A DNA stretch of 64,000 bases from positions 1,240,001 through 1,304,000 of the forward strand of contig NZ_WBVQ01000001.1 in assembly GCF_008933165.1 (NCBI RefSeq), read 5' to 3'. Both the position numbers and the translations under genes were made by a program. The notes beneath the pieces were generated by a model. The model was not told the origin of the DNA, did no database searches, and was given only the letters and a program-made list of their open reading frames with translations. This document shows, piece after piece, positions 16,248 through 23,018 of this stretch. Origin of the DNA: Phaeocystidibacter marisrubri. GTDB lineage: Bacteria; Bacteroidota; Bacteroidia; Flavobacteriales; Schleiferiaceae. The number at the start of each line of letters is the position of its first letter. Position 1 is the first letter of the stretch.

Positions 16248-16940
16248 ATGAAACGAGAGACAAACGCAAACCACGACGCGCATTGGACGGCCATGATGGG
16301 ATTCGACTGGATGTTGGAGACCCCTAGTTTGCTATTCAATGAACTTGACGAGAGTGAATCCGTTGAGTTTAGAGATGGTTTTGAGCGGTTGCAAAAGATT
16401 GATGGTGCTCTCTGCTTACACTCTTTCCTAAAGCAGAATCACTTTATCACTTCATACCCAAGCATTTGCCCTTCGCATCCTCTTAAATGTGACTTGAGAG
16501 AAGTCACTACATGGAACGACAAGAAGATTGAACACACTATTCACCTAGACATTCCAAATTTTGGTGAACTCTCTGCCTTCTGTCCAGATTACTGGTGGAG
16601 ATCCAACGAGTACAAGAAGCACGTTGTGGAGTTGGGGTTGGCAGGGATGGTATACCAGGTTAAGCCTGAACAGAAAACATGTAGAGTAGCTCGTTTACGT
16701 GAAAAGAATGATGATGGTACCAGCTACATCTTTACAGGGGCTACCTTAGATAATATAGAGCCAGCTGAAAGCTTCTACCACAAGGGATGGCTTGCTACCA
16801 TGGAACTTCACCCAGAAGACACATCGCCATTAATCGTGCGCGTTTGGATTCACAAGAAGAACATCCCTACACCTCCCGAAACAGGGATACTATACTCTGG
16901 GGAAATTTGGCTTCACGCCTCTCTGCTCGACAAGAGCTGA
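16248..16940 (+). CDS. Hypothetical protein, 230 aa, no recognised family
   Basis: The start is placed at the ATG at 16248 (MKRETNANHD); an in-frame ATG at 16182 would add a stretch with no counterpart in composition. I do not recognise the family. The protein is soluble, with no signal or membrane segment, rich in Trp and His (HWTAMMGFDWM, CPDYWWRSNEY, IWLHASLLDKS), and contains several Cys residues. A plausible promoter lies just upstream (TTG at 16208-16210, 20 bp, then TTACTTTG at 16231-16238), which would give a very short leader. Its 3' end overlaps the convergent response-regulator gene by 28 bp. Its position next to a signalling operon may be accidental. Confidence 0.6.
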   Translation: MKRETNANHDAHWTAMMGFDWMLETPSLLFNELDESESVEFRDGFERLQKIDGALCLHSFLKQNHFITSYPSICPSHPLKCDLREVTTWNDKKIEHTIHLDIPNFGELSAFCPDYWWRSNEYKKHVVELGLAGMVYQVKPEQKTCRVARLREKNDDGTSYIFTGATLDNIEPAESFYHKGWLATMELHPEDTSPLIVRVWIHKKNIPTPPETGILYSGEIWLHASLLDKS

Positions 16941-17344
16941 ATGGTATCCTCTAAAACGGATTTGAGAACACCTTCATTCAGTGGTTTGCTGATGAATTTG
17001 ACGATGACTTCACGCTTCTTCACGTTCTCCATATCACCAGCATCGATGCTAGAGGACAACATGAATACCGTAAAGCGTTTCACAATTTCTGGGTCCAATT
17101 GACTAAAGTTATCCGCAAAGGCGAACCCGTTCATTTCTGGCATGTAAATATCGAGCAAGACCAAACAATGTGACTTTTCAGGAAGCACCTCATTGGCTTC
17201 GATAGCAGCCAAGGCTTCCTTACCACTGGAATAGGCGACAAAAGAAATTTCGGGATAGAACAGTTCCATGTTCTTGCGTACAATCATCCTATCGATGAAA
17301 CTATCATCAATGAGAACAATACCTATGTTTTCCTTCTTAATCAA
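16913..17344 (-). CDS. Stand-alone receiver-domain response regulator
   Basis: A 143-residue CheY-like receiver. Acidic residues near the N-terminus (LIDDS), the phospho-acceptor Asp65 in VLLDIYMPEMNG, the Ser switch (MLSSS) and the Lys in FISKPLN are all present. There is no output domain, so it acts as a phosphorelay partner or by protein contact. It is the last gene of a five-gene minus-strand operon: its ATG overlaps the stop codon of the receiver-kinase gene by 4 bp (17341-17344). A natural partner is that kinase or the 7TMR-DISM kinase further upstream. Its 3' end overlaps the convergent hypothetical gene ending at 16940. Confidence 0.88.
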   Translation of the reverse strand: MIKKENIGIVLIDDSFIDRMIVRKNMELFYPEISFVAYSSGKEALAAIEANEVLPEKSHCLVLLDIYMPEMNGFAFADNFSQLDPEIVKRFTVFMLSSSIDAGDMENVKKREVIVKFISKPLNEGVLKSVLEDTIQLLSSREA

Positions 17345-18444
17345 AGAGCTGATTCTTCAAAGTTAGGTAGAGAAACGGTCATGGTGGTACCCTCTCCTTT
17401 TGCCGAGTTTACGGTAATGGTCCCCCCTAATCGCTTCACAGCTTCCTTGACAAGATACAAACCTAATCCGGAACCTGAGTTCCCCTTGGCATCGCGGTAG
17501 AACATTTGAAAGACTTTTTCTTGATTGTCTTCCGAGATACCCACACCGTTATCTACAACTTGAATCTCTATGCCAGAATGACCTCCTGTGATGCGAACAG
17601 CTACATGATGCTGACTTTTCACCTCATCACGGTATTTAATGGCATTGGAAATGAGGTTGTTCAAAATGATTCTGAGTTTCACCTCATTGGTCGTAAACAT
17701 TGATACACCCTCTACTTGGTACTCAAGCGTGGTTTGCTCCATCGCGGGGTGATAGCGGTATTCATCGCTGATATCTTTGAGCATCTTATTCAAATCAACC
17801 TCTACAGTCATGTTACCCTCGTGGGTCGATTTGTAGTAATCGATGATGTTGTGAATGAATTCATCCAACTTATCCACCATCTCTTTGGTCATGTTGAAGT
17901 ACTCGATGGCCTTTTCATCCTTTACCTCTTGATTGGCGAGGTAAATCACGCCTTGAATGCTCACAAGCGGTGCGCGAAGGTCGTGCGAAACGCTGTAAAC
18001 AAATCGATCTAGCTCATCGTATGCCTTCTGCAAAGAGATGTTTTTCTCCTTCAGTTCTCTTCGTGCATCATAAATATCCTTGGCGTTATTGATCGCCACG
18101 CGTAGCGTATCTTCATTCCAAGGCTTAGAAATGAATTTGTAGATCTGGCCTTTGTTGATGGCATTGATGACTGCCTCAATATCCGCATATCCCGTCAGGA
18201 GAATTCGAATGCAATCTGGATAATCATCTACTACGTTCTCAAAAAACTCCACACCCGTCATTCCAGGCATACGTTGATCGGCAACAATGATCTCAATGGG
18301 TTCTTTCGCAAGAACCTCTATTCCTTCTTGTGCAGATATGGCGGTATAGACATCGTACTCTCTTCGGAAGTTCGCCCGAAAAGAGTTCAAGTTATTTTGT
18401 TCGTCGTCTACGTAAAGTACACGTGGTTTGTTCGTTGTTGCCAT
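17341..18444 (-). CDS. Receiver-histidine kinase hybrid (REC-HisKA-HATPase)
   Basis: A 367-residue soluble protein with an N-terminal receiver (residues 8-125; Asp56 in VADQRMPGMTG, LLTGYAD, Lys107 in ISKPW), a coiled linker, a HisKA domain (His154 in YSVSHDLRAPL) and a HATPase domain (NNLISNAIKY, DNGVGI, GSGLGLYLVKEA). It would take a phosphate or signal on its receiver and control its own kinase output, a common relay design in Bacteroidota. The receiver is strikingly similar to the separate regulator encoded divergently at 22545-23018 (shared YVDDE-NNL, TAIS, ADQRMP/TDQRMP, MTG and KPWNED). It starts 5 bp after the 7TMR-DISM kinase and overlaps the lone receiver downstream, so the three are co-expressed. 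Confidence 0.92.
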   Translation of the reverse strand: MATTNKPRVLYVDDEQNNLNSFRANFRREYDVYTAISAQEGIEVLAKEPIEIIVADQRMPGMTGVEFFENVVDDYPDCIRILLTGYADIEAVINAINKGQIYKFISKPWNEDTLRVAINNAKDIYDARRELKEKNISLQKAYDELDRFVYSVSHDLRAPLVSIQGVIYLANQEVKDEKAIEYFNMTKEMVDKLDEFIHNIIDYYKSTHEGNMTVEVDLNKMLKDISDEYRYHPAMEQTTLEYQVEGVSMFTTNEVKLRIILNNLISNAIKYRDEVKSQHHVAVRITGGHSGIEIQVVDNGVGISEDNQEKVFQMFYRDAKGNSGSGLGLYLVKEAVKRLGGTITVNSAKGEGTTMTVSLPNFEESAL

Positions 18445-18449
18445 GCTCT

Positions 18450-20570
18450 TTACTCTTGAATGTGTTGCACAGGAAGCGTGATTATGAAGGTTGTTCCCTC
18501 ATTGGCTACCGATTCAACATCAATTGTTCCTTGATGATTCTTGATGATATTGTAAACAATGGATAGACCGAGCCCCGTTCCTTCGCCCACAGGCTTGGTG
18601 GTGAAGAAAGGTTCGAATATTTTCTTGCGAATGTCTTCTGGCATCCCTGGACCATTGTCTTTAAATCGCACTTCCACACGGTCGTTCGGAAGTGGTCGGG
18701 TTGAGATTAGTATCTCCCCTTTCTCCTTTTGATCTGGATTACTCTTAATGGCTTGTGCTGCATTGGTAAGAATGTTCATGAAGACCTGATTCAATTTGCC
18801 CGCATAACACTCAATCTTCGGCAGCTCTCCATAATCCTTCTTCAATTCGATGATATCCTTAATACTGTTGTTGAGTAGAATCAAGGTGCTATCCAGACCT
18901 TCGTGAAGGTTTACAAACTTAATGTCTTGCTCGTCTACCCTAGAGAATACTTTTAATCCCTTGATAATTTCCACCGTTCGGTCTGTACCGTCTTGCATTC
19001 CTTGAAGCAAGTCGTCTATTTCTTCGATGATGTATTCAAACTCAATTTCCTTCTTGAACTTCTCTAGCTCTTCTATGGTTGCTAGATTCTTGCTTTCTAC
19101 AATCTTGTTCTCCAACCACTCAAGAAGCTCGCGAAGATCGTCCATGTCTCTTCTTAGCGGACCGATATTCGCCGAGATAAAGTTTACAGGGTTGTTGATT
19201 TCGTGGGCGATGCCGGCTGTTAGCTGACCCAATGAGGCCATTTTCTCTGCATCTACCAATTGACTTTGAGCTTCCTTCAGATTGGAAAGTGTTCTCTCCA
19301 ACTCTTTGGTTCGCTCTTTCACCATAGATTCCAACATCTCGTTCTGTTCACGAACGATTTTCTCATTCTCCTTGGAAACTCTAAGGGCTTCTTCTTGAGA
19401 GGCTTCTTTCTCTTTTTTCAAGGTATTGATGCGGTCTGCCAAGGCAATGGAAAGCAAGATAGCTTCCAGTCCCGAACCAATTTCAATGATGCTTTTGGTA
19501 AGGAAGGTGTATTCAATCACTCCAAAATTTCGAAGGGCGAAAACGAAAATCCCTGCTAAGAATACGGTCCATGCAATCAAGAAAAACTTAGCCGGTCTAT
19601 ACCCTTTCTTGGCAATAATGCTGATGAACACTAAAGCGTACAAACTCACGGTAAGCGCTCCTGTATCTACCAAGGTGTAACTCAATGCTACGAAGTCGAA
19701 GACATACGTAACCATGGCCAAGGCATAGAGCAATTGAAAGAACACGAGTCCCTTGTACAACTTGGGCGTAAATCGCTTAGGTTGAACAAATATCTTCGCA
19801 AATTCAATGGCCGTAAATCCGGTGAATGCCGAGAAGAAAACAACGCTTCCGTTATACCATGCCGGTGAATTCGGGAACATGTAATGAAAGGTCCATCCCT
19901 CTAAAGATCCTTGCGTTAATCCGATTGAAAGAATATACAAGATGTACCACAAGTAGCTCTTATCCTTTGTGGTGATATAGATAAACAAGTTGTAGAAGAA
20001 CATCACGAAGATCACACCGAAGTACAATCCAAGAAAAACTTGTTTGTTGCCGTTGTCTAGCGAAACTGATTGAATATCCCCTATTCTGAGCGGTAAAAAG
20101 AGCTGATCTTTACTTCTCACTCGCATGTAGATGACCTTACTTTCCCCCTTTTCTAGGGTGATGGGAAATAAGAAAGTAGGATGATCTACGGGCCGCTCAG
20201 AATACTTGTATCGATCACCTGCTACATAGGTTGGCAGACCAGTTGAATCCATGTAAACTTCAATGGAATCAATCATTGGGAATTCGAGCTGCAAGTAGAA
20301 ATGGTCGTGGTAGCTCTCATTCTTAAGAGGAATACGAATCCAATATGCCGCTTCATCGCGGTTAAAATTCAGGACTTTCTCATTGCCCAATTCATAGGGC
20401 GCATTCAGTGCTTCCTTAAATCCAGCCTTGGAAGTAGAGTCTCTCCAAACCCCTGCAGATTCGCCCAAATAAGCTAAATCTCCTGATTGAATGATCCATT
20501 GAGATTCTGTGGATTGGGAAATCCCCAACACAGAACAAAGGGAGAGAAAGAGTAGTACAAGAGTCCTCAT
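18450..20570 (-). CDS. 7TMR-DISM sensor histidine kinase
   Basis: A 706-residue inner-membrane sensor. Residues 1-20 are a signal peptide; about 25-170 form the extracytoplasmic 7TMR-DISM beta domain ([31 protein letters not shown]), a jelly-roll often thought to bind carbohydrates or other small ligands. About 178-378 hold seven membrane helices. A coiled coil (380-440) joins the kinase: His456 in [14 protein letters not shown], the N box ([15 protein letters not shown]), DNGPGMPE and GTGLGLSIV. The kinase core resembles the NtrB-like HPK4 group. It begins 10 bp after the acyltransferase-like gene and ends 5 bp before the receiver-kinase gene. The order implies that it senses a signal linked to the two upstream enzymes, which is inference. 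Confidence 0.92.
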
Positions 20571-20579
20571 TATGCGTGG

Positions 20580-21356
20580 CTAGCTAGCCGAGATTTGAGA
20601 AAATGGATCCTTGAATTCATTAGGTTTGATATTGGGAAGAAGTAAGTCGTACTCCACTTCCACTTCAATTCTTCTACCTGGTGAAACTTCGGTGGTAACT
20701 TGTTGTAGGTTTTGGCGGAGTTCTTGGATTTTCCGCTGTTCAGAACCGCGAGCGTGTTCCAGTGTGCTGGTATCTTCCAAGAGAACAGCGGTTGCCAAGA
20801 GGTCTAGTTTGGGATAATAGAAGGTTCCTTGATTTCCAACTTCGGTGAGAATTTTACAACCCACTCGTTCTGCCCATCGTACCGTATACGGTGCACACAA
20901 AGCGAAAAGCGATTTAATTCCGAGCTGCTCGGTTATCACGGCACCTGCTCGTGTAGCAAAAAAGCTACCCACGCCCAATCCCGCTACTTCAATACTGTTC
21001 CACAATCCGCACAATTCTCCAGTACCATCAATGGAAAGCTTCTTAACGAGATCGTAGATCTTATTGTCCATGAACCCCGTAGCTTCTTCTATGGGAAGCT
21101 GTTGAGTACCGCCAGCAGCGTGAACCCGAGCTCCGCCGTAGACTTTTTTTCCGTCTAACGACTCAACAATGATTACAAATACGGCTGGATTATAGGCCCA
21201 TGCATGATTCGCCGAGGTCACCTTTTTCACACCGTGAACCTCCAATACCTTTCGGTGGCCATCAATGAATTTTTGTGAACTCTCGGGATCGTCTACAGCT
21301 CTAAATGCACGGATTCTTACCTCCGGCTGTTTATCCAGCTCAATCATTTGTTCCAA
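20580..21356 (-). CDS. GNAT/autoinducer-synthase-like acyltransferase, function unknown
   Basis: A 258-residue soluble protein. I read it as a GNAT-fold protein of the N-acyl-amino-acid/acyl-homoserine-lactone synthase type: an N-terminal RIRAFRAVDDPE, a substrate strand (AVFVIIVES), GGARVHA at residues 74-80 in the place of the G-x-RL strand of LuxI-like enzymes, an acidic-aromatic stretch (ELCGLWNSIEVAG, 114-126), and a GNAT-like helix-strand (TRAGAVITEQLGIKSLFALCAP, then RVGCKI). A C-terminal extension (about 198-258) adds a charged helix. The assignment is by pattern only and the substrate is unknown. Its start overlaps the E1-like gene by 17 bp, so translation is coupled, and a sensor kinase follows 10 bp later. 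It might acylate or modify a product activated by the E1-like partner. Confidence 0.55.
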   Translation of the reverse strand: MEQMIELDKQPEVRIRAFRAVDDPESSQKFIDGHRKVLEVHGVKKVTSANHAWAYNPAVFVIIVESLDGKKVYGGARVHAAGGTQQLPIEEATGFMDNKIYDLVKKLSIDGTGELCGLWNSIEVAGLGVGSFFATRAGAVITEQLGIKSLFALCAPYTVRWAERVGCKILTEVGNQGTFYYPKLDLLATAVLLEDTSTLEHARGSEQRKIQELRQNLQQVTTEVSPGRRIEVEVEYDLLLPNIKPNEFKDPFSQISAS

Positions 21357-22431
21357 TCAACTGTTCCAAATCTACATAGTACCTTCCTGATGCCAAAGTA
21401 TTCCCAAGTAATATCCTTCGAGCACTATCCGTCATCATGGCACCTCCCAAGGTCACAGCTGAAGCCAGTTGAGGCCAAGTGGTGATGGTTTTGCCTATCT
21501 CAGCGAATGAGCTCTTTGCCCTATCCGACGCCATGGGATAGTCGACCAAAGTAAAGAGCAAATTGCGTTTATCTTCAGGAGTAAAAGTGGCTGGATCTTT
21601 ACCTTCAAATGCAGCTAACTTTCCATGAAAGATAGGTCTATCACTTTCTAAATCAAAGCGCTCCACATCCACCATGCCGCGATCACTCGTATCCATGATC
21701 ACAGGCAATTTCATCTTTTTAGCAATGTGGCGAACGGCAATTTTAATGGGTAGTGAATCACATTCTTCTACCAACAAATCCAGACCTGACATGAAGGAAA
21801 CCGCATTCTCAGGGGTTACACCTTCGTCGTAGATTTCCACATGTAAATAAGGATTGATTTGTGCTATTTCTCGTGCGGCAATCACTGTTTTGGGCATCCC
21901 AAGCTGATGGACGCCTGCACGCAAGCGATTCAGATTGCTCAAGTCCAAGGTGTCAAAATCTGCAATGCGAATCGTACCTCCAACGTTCTCCATGGCTAAG
22001 GTCACTGCCGCGGCTTGCCCCACAGAGAGTCCAATGACACCAATGGTCTTTCCTGAGAGAATCTTCTGCTCTTCTGGAGTAATCTTAAACTGATTCCGAG
22101 AAGTCACGACCTCTCTATACATCTCCTCATTGAGAACTCGAACTACGGTATCCAACCATGGATAGTAAACCCAGTTGCCCATAGCGTTAGAGGAATCCGA
22201 AATAAATGCTTCAATCGCATCCTTCAACTCATCCTCTGTATAAGGCTGCGTTGGACGTTTTATCTTCAACCACTCTCCAATCTGAGTGTGATACTGATCC
22301 AAAACGTTTGTAGGACCTTCATCCATTATGGCCTCTGGTAGTGCCGCTGAATCTGTTACAGGTTGAATAACAGGACGTACGGCGAAGCCACGAATATCGG
22401 AAGATGCTAATTCCGTAAACGTATCATTCAT
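21340..22431 (-). CDS. E1-like (ThiF/MoeB family) adenylyltransferase
   Basis: A 363-residue protein. After an N-terminal helical region (1-125) comes an E1/ThiF Rossmann domain: GVIGLSVGQAAAV (131-143), the nucleotide-binding IADFDTLDLSNLNRLRAG (156-173) and LLVEECDS (219-226). It ends with VTLGGAMMTDSARRILLG and SGRYYVDLEQL. E1-like enzymes adenylate a carboxyl group, on a small protein or a small molecule. The form recalls the Rv1355c/MoeY-type proteins in which such a domain is fused to a nitroreductase-like domain; that second domain is missing here. There are no zinc-binding CxxC pairs as in MoeB/ThiF. It leads a five-gene operon with an acyltransferase-like protein and three signalling proteins, and no molybdopterin or thiamine genes are near, so a biosynthetic role in those pathways is unlikely. 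Confidence 0.75.
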   Translation of the reverse strand: MNDTFTELASSDIRGFAVRPVIQPVTDSAALPEAIMDEGPTNVLDQYHTQIGEWLKIKRPTQPYTEDELKDAIEAFISDSSNAMGNWVYYPWLDTVVRVLNEEMYREVVTSRNQFKITPEEQKILSGKTIGVIGLSVGQAAAVTLAMENVGGTIRIADFDTLDLSNLNRLRAGVHQLGMPKTVIAAREIAQINPYLHVEIYDEGVTPENAVSFMSGLDLLVEECDSLPIKIAVRHIAKKMKLPVIMDTSDRGMVDVERFDLESDRPIFHGKLAAFEGKDPATFTPEDKRNLLFTLVDYPMASDRAKSSFAEIGKTITTWPQLASAVTLGGAMMTDSARRILLGNTLASGRYYVDLEQLIGTND

Positions 22432-22544
22432 TGGTGTTGTTCTAGTAGGTTTGAGAGTAAAGTTGAGAACTTTTCAAACTCAATGCTGCCGAATTTACAA
22501 GAATTTGAATTGTTTCAATAATTTTATGCTCCAGAGGATAACAC

Positions 22545-23018
22545 ATGAACGAAGAAATAAAAACCAAGATCTCAATCTTATACGTTGACGACGAAGAGAA
22601 TAACTTGAGGTCATTCAAAGCTACATTTCGCAGAATTTACGACGTTCACACGGCGATTTCTGGAGATGAAGGCTTAAAAATCCTTTCGGAGAATCCTATT
22701 CAAGTCATTATTACCGACCAAAGAATGCCGGAAATGACAGGAATCGAATTTCTCTCCAAGGTGCTTGAAAAGGATAGAGAGCCGATGCGAATGCTACTTA
22801 CGGGATATTCCGATATCAACGCGGTAATTGACTCTATCAACAAAGGACAGGTATATCGATACCTCACCAAACCGTGGAATGAAGATGAACTTCGCAGCGC
22901 TATTGAATCGGCCTATGAAGTTTACTCTCTCCGAAAAGAAAACAAGGAGCTTCTGAAGAAATTGGAAATCGCCAACGACCAGCTTGAATTCTTGCTTAGA
23001 CAGCGGTTGTTATCTTAA
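22545..23018 (+). CDS. Receiver-domain response regulator, paralogue of the hybrid kinase receiver
   Basis: A 157-residue protein: receiver (8-125; Asp58 in IITDQRMPEMTG, MLLTGYSD, YLTKPWNED) followed by a short coiled tail (KENKELLKKLEIANDQLEFLLRQR) with no DNA-binding or catalytic output. Its receiver matches that of the hybrid kinase at 17341-18444 at most positions, and it is transcribed divergently from the operon that contains that kinase, 113 bp from the E1-like gene. It probably shares the same phosphodonor and may act by dimerisation. It is followed after 8 bp by the Rrf2-type regulator. Confidence 0.88.
   Translation: MNEEIKTKISILYVDDEENNLRSFKATFRRIYDVHTAISGDEGLKILSENPIQVIITDQRMPEMTGIEFLSKVLEKDREPMRMLLTGYSDINAVIDSINKGQVYRYLTKPWNEDELRSAIESAYEVYSLRKENKELLKKLEIANDQLEFLLRQRLLS

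Follow-up and report, generated by a model that had tools for sequence, protein, structure and literature searches.

Oxazolone biosynthesis in bacteria is known from the TrzAS, TyzACB and OxzAB systems, in which an N-acyltransferase works with a ThiF-like cyclase. TrzS and the N-acyltransferase TrzA, for example, produce N-acyl tryptazolones (PMC12856293), and the structures nearest to TyzA are those of FeeM and BjaI (PMC10404671). Oxazolones are destroyed by acid and by methanol (PMC12856293). A related pair is found in Phaeocystidibacter marisrubri, in a stretch of 64,000 nucleotides (contig NZ_WBVQ01000001.1, positions 1,240,001 to 1,304,000; hereafter, the window). As in the described systems, a predicted FeeM-like N-acyltransferase (the GNAT-like protein) stands beside a ThiF-like cyclase of the Rv1355c family (the E1-like protein, or E1) (PMC12856293, PMC10404671). 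The locus differs from them in two respects: no flavin oxidase is found in the genome at E<=1e-10 with a profile built from 15 oxidase halves, and the enzymes are joined to a two-component relay headed by a 7TMR-DISM histidine kinase. It is proposed, with a probability of roughly 0.55, that a capped N-acyl amino acid, produced by the FeeM-like synthase, serves as a signal read by this dedicated membrane kinase. The assignment of the enzymes to their classes is considerably safer, and is made with good confidence. The chemistry of TrzAS and TyzACB is already published; what is new is the locking of an oxazolone-type enzyme pair to a two-component relay. An open-literature search, in which most matches were judged without full text, found no publication linking the acyltransferase and E1 pair to a histidine kinase.

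Acyl-homoserine lactone (AHL) signalling offers a second comparison. In the LuxM/LuxN system, the synthase gene is found together with the gene of a membrane histidine kinase, an arrangement resembling that of the window. The window locus differs from LuxI-type and LuxM/LuxN systems in that an E1 would finish the head group, and in that the sensor is a 7TMR-DISM kinase. A third comparison is with the stieleriacine, kyonggic acid and thalassotalic acid clusters, where an N-acyl amino acid synthase likewise lies near a ThiF protein; a nitroreductase is also present in these clusters, and the available part of the report mentions no kinase (PMC12479983).

Linkage of the Enzyme Pair to the Kinase

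An earlier reading of the window, made by a model from the sequence only, had proposed that the first two genes make or modify a small-molecule signal read by the kinases, and had asked whether gene pair and kinases stay linked across Bacteroidota. They do so across 80 named loci, selected by E1 as the 80 best matches among 113 relatives. The acyltransferase lies beside E1 in 79 of them (78 by script, and L110 on inspection; L062 ends inside E1), and the same 7TMR-DISM kinase is present in 78, the contigs of L051 and L062 stopping before the kinase position. The other relay genes are recognised less often: the receiver-kinase hybrid in 65, the lone receiver in 50, and a divergently transcribed receiver in 36. 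Chitinophaga accounts for 37 of the 80 loci; by order, they belong to Chitinophagales (40), Flavobacteriales (15), Cytophagales (9) and Sphingobacteriales (4), with 12 unassigned. Gene order varies, with the acyltransferase preceding E1 in some Chitinophaga and others. The gene set is more than a chance arrangement, and recurs across four Bacteroidota orders.

Co-occurrence was also followed in genome samples of the order (296 genomes) and the phylum (395 genomes). The order sample contains 24 genomes with E1, 27 with the acyltransferase and 28 with the DISM kinase (one, G291, by its kinase domain only). All 24 E1 genomes also have the acyltransferase and the kinase. E1 and the acyltransferase are neighbours in 23 of these; in G033, both genes are located at contig ends. 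Four genomes (G082, G218, G248 and G253) have the kinase on a different contig or some 100 kb from the enzymes, and in the three of these where the stretch is long enough it keeps its hybrid partner. Hence, the E1 gene is not usually found apart from the kinases, as the sequence-only reading required; separation is confined to 4 of 24 genomes, where the kinase is still kept. Conversely, of the 27 order genomes in which the kinase is full-length, 26 have the acyltransferase. The remaining one, G283, is an assembly of 88% completeness that has the kinase but neither E1 nor the acyltransferase. In the phylum sample, E1 occurs in 10 genomes. The kinase is detected in 19, of which six match through the kinase domain alone, leaving 13 with a full-length kinase; these 13 include every genome with E1, and each of them carries the acyltransferase in the same cluster. 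The association of E1 with the full-length kinase has Fisher test values of 2e-32 in the order and 1e-17 in the phylum, kinship being ignored.

It might be argued that these genes are neighbours without a shared function, held together by descent. The separation of the two halves in G082, G218, G248 and G253, and the large share of Chitinophaga among the named loci, would suit this explanation. Nevertheless, it is very improbable, given that the separated halves are both retained and that only the incomplete genome G283 breaks the association of acyltransferase with full-length kinase in the order.

The Enzyme Pair

Neither Pfam nor NCBIfam gives a match above cut-off for the GNAT-like protein. 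A phmmer search of the PDB (E<=1) detected no sequence similarity to any chain, solved AHL synthases included. Its AlphaFold2 model, from 43 alignment rows, has a mean predicted local distance difference test score (pLDDT) of 91.6. Foldseek places FeeM (2g0b) first with this model (E 2.5e-7), followed by BjaI and other AHL synthases; FeeM and BjaI are also the two structures named for TyzA. VIA-align likewise ranks FeeM best (Z 15.7, root-mean-square deviation 2.7, 175 residues), although TofI (15.2) and a general GNAT (14.8) are tied with it within 1. The predicted fold is similar to those of TofI, BjaI and LasI. The model supports a FeeM/LuxI-like protein by fold, in agreement with the LuxI/FeeM-type GNAT named in the sequence-only reading, for which an unrelated fold would have been fatal.

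The E1-like protein matches Pfam ThiF (3.3e-23) and the NCBIfam family NF005901, the Rv1355c family (1.3e-125), the latter over profile positions 22-341 of 722 only. With 420 bits against a cut-off of 476, it falls short of a full-length member and covers the N-terminal half alone. It is assigned to the cyclase half of the Rv1355c/TrzS family, with the flavin oxidase half absent. Nine plasmid proteins from Rhodococcus, Mycolicibacterium and Nocardia, most of them annotated as 'Rv1355c family protein', match it at 45-46% identity, the alignments spanning about three quarters of its length. Nine residues, D158, D160, N166, N168, R169, K181, D225, K230 and D250 (numbered as in the window protein), which in this family line the nucleotide site, are invariant in all 84 aligned E1 rows. 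The rows comprise the window protein, four plasmid proteins and 79 named loci, L062 being excluded because its E1 runs off the contig. In TrzS, Asp217 has been mutated. The thiamine, molybdopterin, tRNA and ubiquitin-like E1 pathways were considered and rejected, the best such NCBIfam match reaching 68 bits versus 420 for the Rv1355c family.

The sequence-only reading had left this E1 without a known pathway. That view is not supported: an acyltransferase with a ThiF-like cyclase constitutes the published N-acyl oxazolone pathway (PMC12856293, PMC10404671), here minus the desaturase. The window has an Rv1355c-family ThiF-like cyclase with intact adenylation residues and, next to it, a FeeM-like protein predicted from its fold to be an amino acid N-acyltransferase. 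No fused or adjacent flavin-dependent oxidase is found in its genome at E<=1e-10, and for this reason the locus is classed as a variant of the oxazolone pathway rather than a member. A desaturase elsewhere in the genome was also considered and set aside, none being detected at the same threshold; five other nitroreductases are present, two of which match the desaturase profile weakly (19.7 and 21.0 bits).

The oxidase is variable among relatives. It is present in 14 of the 24 E1-bearing order genomes and absent from 10, while five further genomes have an oxidase match without E1. E1 is fused to the oxidase in 15 of the 80 named loci and unfused in 65 (one of which, L062, is cut by a contig end), and the retrieved flanking sequences contain no oxidase as a separate gene. 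In a quick E1 tree with several long branches, which included the four plasmid rows, the fusion state needs six changes, at least four of them by well-supported branches.

A different possibility is that the E1 does not cyclise. It might instead pass the activated N-acyl amino acid to an amine, a thiol or a protein, giving an amide, a thioester or a protein mark and no oxazolone. The missing desaturase partner is consistent with such a role, as is the description of the ThiF role in stieleriacine clusters as enigmatic because no acyl-oxazolone was observed there (PMC12479983). A non-cyclising E1 is nonetheless improbable, since the catalytic residues and about 46% identity are held in common with TrzS-type fusions, and the desaturase fusion is kept in 15 of the 80 named relatives.

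Among the plasmids, the window acyltransferase has no sequence match. A Rhodococcus qingshengii plasmid (L112:5629-9953) carries a TrzS-type gene near a GGDEF gene rather than a two-component relay, and cyclic di-GMP genes similarly adjoin trzAS in Mycobacterium tuberculosis (PMC12856293). On a Streptomyces plasmid (L113:7830-11296, plus strand), a GNAT gene comes after an unfused ThiF gene, and a Mrr_cat protein is encoded about 0.9 kb further along; this GNAT has no detectable relation to that of the window. On another Streptomyces plasmid (L115:7131-10045, plus strand), the ThiF gene overlaps a beta-ketoacyl-acyl carrier protein synthase III gene. Separately, L123:6394-7563 (plus strand) encodes a fusion of an acyltransferase relative (170 bits) with a Mrr-type restriction endonuclease domain (Mrr_cat 5.2e-27), with no E1 near.

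The Sensor Kinase and the Relay

The kinase combines a 7TMR-DISM_7TM domain (1.3e-49) and DISMED2 (6.8e-25) with a histidine kinase core (HisKA and HATPase). RetS-like kinases have the same domains, but the window kinase belongs to a distinct group that co-occurs with the acyltransferase. It is the sole 7TMR-DISM_7TM protein of the genome over the Pfam cut-off, although a second scores 27 versus 29 bits. In a model of its first 400 residues (pLDDT 92.9), a RetS-like periplasmic domain (Z 15.3) is followed by a 7TM bundle; Foldseek also matched the sensor to Wntless, but at E 5e-4 this was too weak and was set aside.

The hybrid kinase matches receiver (3.7e-18), HisKA (2.9e-7) and HATPase (1.8e-28) profiles, the lone receiver matches at 2.1e-10, and the divergent receiver at 1.8e-20. 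Pfam recognises no DNA-binding output in the gene set, so the final target of the relay lies elsewhere. In six loci (L064, L072, L089, L100, L101 and L131), the hybrid gene is replaced by a longer receiver protein, which by eye looks like a receiver-PAS-kinase. Pfam bears out this architecture in L131, the one tested, and no output domain appeared.

Evolutionary distances were compared in 43 dereplicated loci of 66 complete ones, with permutations that ignore kinship. The mean pairwise distance is largest in the periplasmic part (2.58), intermediate in the 7TM part (1.18) and smallest in the kinase part (0.66); the sensor part of the kinase diverges faster than the kinase part. Given the kinase part and the hybrid, distances of the 7TM part correlate with those of E1 (0.53) and the GNAT-like protein (0.45), and those of the periplasmic part with E1 (0.42) and the GNAT-like protein (0.25). 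The correlation between the GNAT-like protein and the hybrid, given the kinase part, is 0.015.

Replacement of the Proposed Head-Group Enzyme

Five genomes without E1 keep the acyltransferase and the kinase together, with another enzyme in the place of E1. Three of these (G015, G027 and G054; loci L118, L116 and L117), which belong to one family and have no E1 at the threshold used, encode an FAD_binding_4 protein of 500-526 amino acids between acyltransferase and kinase, the G015 kinase being a fragment at a contig end. The PDB search covered the protein of L117 alone, whose matches include p-cresol methylhydroxylase (3.5e-53) and eugenol and vanillyl-alcohol oxidases (VAOs), chiefly over residues 15-275; NCBIfam matches of the flavoenzyme to glycolate oxidase are under cut-off. 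In the other two (G408 and G630; L132 and L133), the replacement is a 213-amino-acid ICMT-like methyltransferase (Pfam ICMT 1.5e-19 and 3.5e-18; NCBIfam below cut-off). Each of the five loci also has a receiver gene transcribed divergently from the acyltransferase.

VAO-type enzymes oxidise 4-hydroxyphenyl compounds, and ICMTs methylate the carboxylates of lipid-like amino acids. By analogy, both replacements would be compatible with an N-acyl amino acid substrate. The best explanation is a conserved core of acyltransferase and kinase, with a head-group-finishing enzyme that varies by lineage.

A Proposed Signal and Its Candidate Receptor

In the proposed scheme, the operon encodes both the synthesis of a small lipid-like compound and the receptor for it. 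The GNAT-like protein, whose class is taken from its fold and published kin, would acylate an amino acid, which is probably aromatic. The E1 would then adenylate the free carboxylate with ATP, closing a 2-alkyl-oxazolone (azlactone) or capping the carboxylate otherwise. Without the desaturase half of TrzS, and with no desaturase found in the genome, the ring would remain saturated, so that an N-acyl amino acid with a capped carboxylate is the likely product. Capping would remove the charge, as the lactone ring does in AHLs. The 7TMR-DISM kinase would sense this product at the membrane, and phosphate would pass via the hybrid kinase to the receivers.

Azlactones racemise, hydrolysing to enantiomeric mixtures. 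In Olivibacter sp. FHG000416, also of the Bacteroidota, two N-acyl tyrosines and one N-acyl phenylalanine were isolated as enantiomeric mixtures with D/L ratios of 1:16, 1:1.7 and 1.6:1 (PMC8433624); no cause is given in the available part of that report. These mixtures may be a chemical hint at azlactones. In addition, TrzS accumulates a cyclised saturated compound when oxygen is limited or the oxidase is disabled (PMC12856293), and by analogy this is the product that would be expected from the window enzymes.

Several points weigh against a signal read by the kinase. Ligand and product are both predictions, and so is recognition of the product by the kinase. A saturated azlactone would be short-lived in water, and no exporter gene was identified. 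Published oxazolones are more abundant in cells than in medium (PMC12856293). The window GNAT has weak similarity to the protein beside the Rhodococcus TrzS-type gene (hhalign probability 40%; 12.8 bits in a three-sequence search). Once the sensor parts are taken into account, distances of the GNAT-like protein still correlate with those of the kinase part (0.54); the distance test is therefore not sensor-specific and lends weak support. Finally, the periplasmic domain of the kinase resembles RetS and carbohydrate-binding modules, and the same co-occurrence would be expected of a relay that regulates the pathway in response to a different cue.

An alternative is a regulated lipid pathway, with the DISM relay responding to an external cue and regulating the synthesis of N-acyl amino acids or oxazolones that would act in redox processes, in the envelope or as antimicrobials; the RetS-like and carbohydrate-module-like periplasmic domain would suit it. 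Oxazolones are indeed tied to stress in other bacteria (PMC12856293). This alternative is rather unlikely, though it deserves more weight than the two considered above: the set has no recognised DNA-binding output, the relay is apart from the enzymes in some genomes, and the kinase clade is retained when the head-group enzyme is swapped.

Gene Layout

The features of the locus are listed in Table 1. The open reading frame (ORF) and Pfam calls agree with the five close-packed minus-strand genes of the sequence-only reading. In order of transcription, they are separated by a 17-bp overlap, a 9-bp gap, a 5-bp gap and a 4-bp overlap; only the second had been given differently, as 10 bp. That five-gene description did not include the divergent receiver gene, which goes with the set. 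A block of about 45 bases in the presumed promoter region is conserved among the window, L032 and L033, and less so in L083, while a consensus promoter scan of the region gave eight sites, fewer than the 11.9 in shuffles. The nearest named genome is that of Phaeocystidibacter luteus (E1 identity 73%).

Table 1. Features of the locus, in window coordinates.
Feature	Position	Strand	Basis
E1/ThiF-like adenylyltransferase, 363 aa	21340-22431	minus	ORF; Pfam ThiF
N-acyltransferase with a FeeM/LuxI-like GNAT fold, predicted to synthesise an N-acyl amino acid, 258 aa	20580-21356	minus	Predicted fold
7TMR-DISM sensor histidine kinase, candidate receptor, 706 aa	18450-20570	minus	Pfam; sensor model; co-occurrence with acyltransferase
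Soluble receiver-histidine kinase hybrid, 367 aa	17341-18444	minus	Pfam receiver, HisKA, HATPase
Lone receiver without output domain, 143 aa	16913-17344	minus	Pfam receiver
Divergent receiver protein, no recognised output domain	22545-23018	plus	Pfam receiver; linkage
E1/divergent-receiver intergenic region, presumed site of both promoters	22432-22544		Conserved block

Implications

It is tempting to extend the proposal to a widespread, undescribed Bacteroidota signalling system, in which lineage-specific N-acyl amino acid pheromones would be read by a dedicated 7TM histidine kinase. An acyltransferase-receptor core would be combined with interchangeable head-group enzymes, namely the E1 cyclase, the E1-desaturase fusion, the VAO-like oxidase and the ICMT-like methyltransferase. 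This extension is tentative, and less probable than the reading of the window locus itself. The physiological role of oxazolones is, according to the authors of the TrzS work, a major unresolved question (PMC12856293). If the proposal is true, oxazolone-type lipids would gain a function, and a synthase-receptor signalling system would be added to the Bacteroidota. A biosynthetic pair that travels with a candidate receptor in harmless, culturable genera such as Chitinophaga and Phaeocystidibacter makes the role of oxazolones directly testable.

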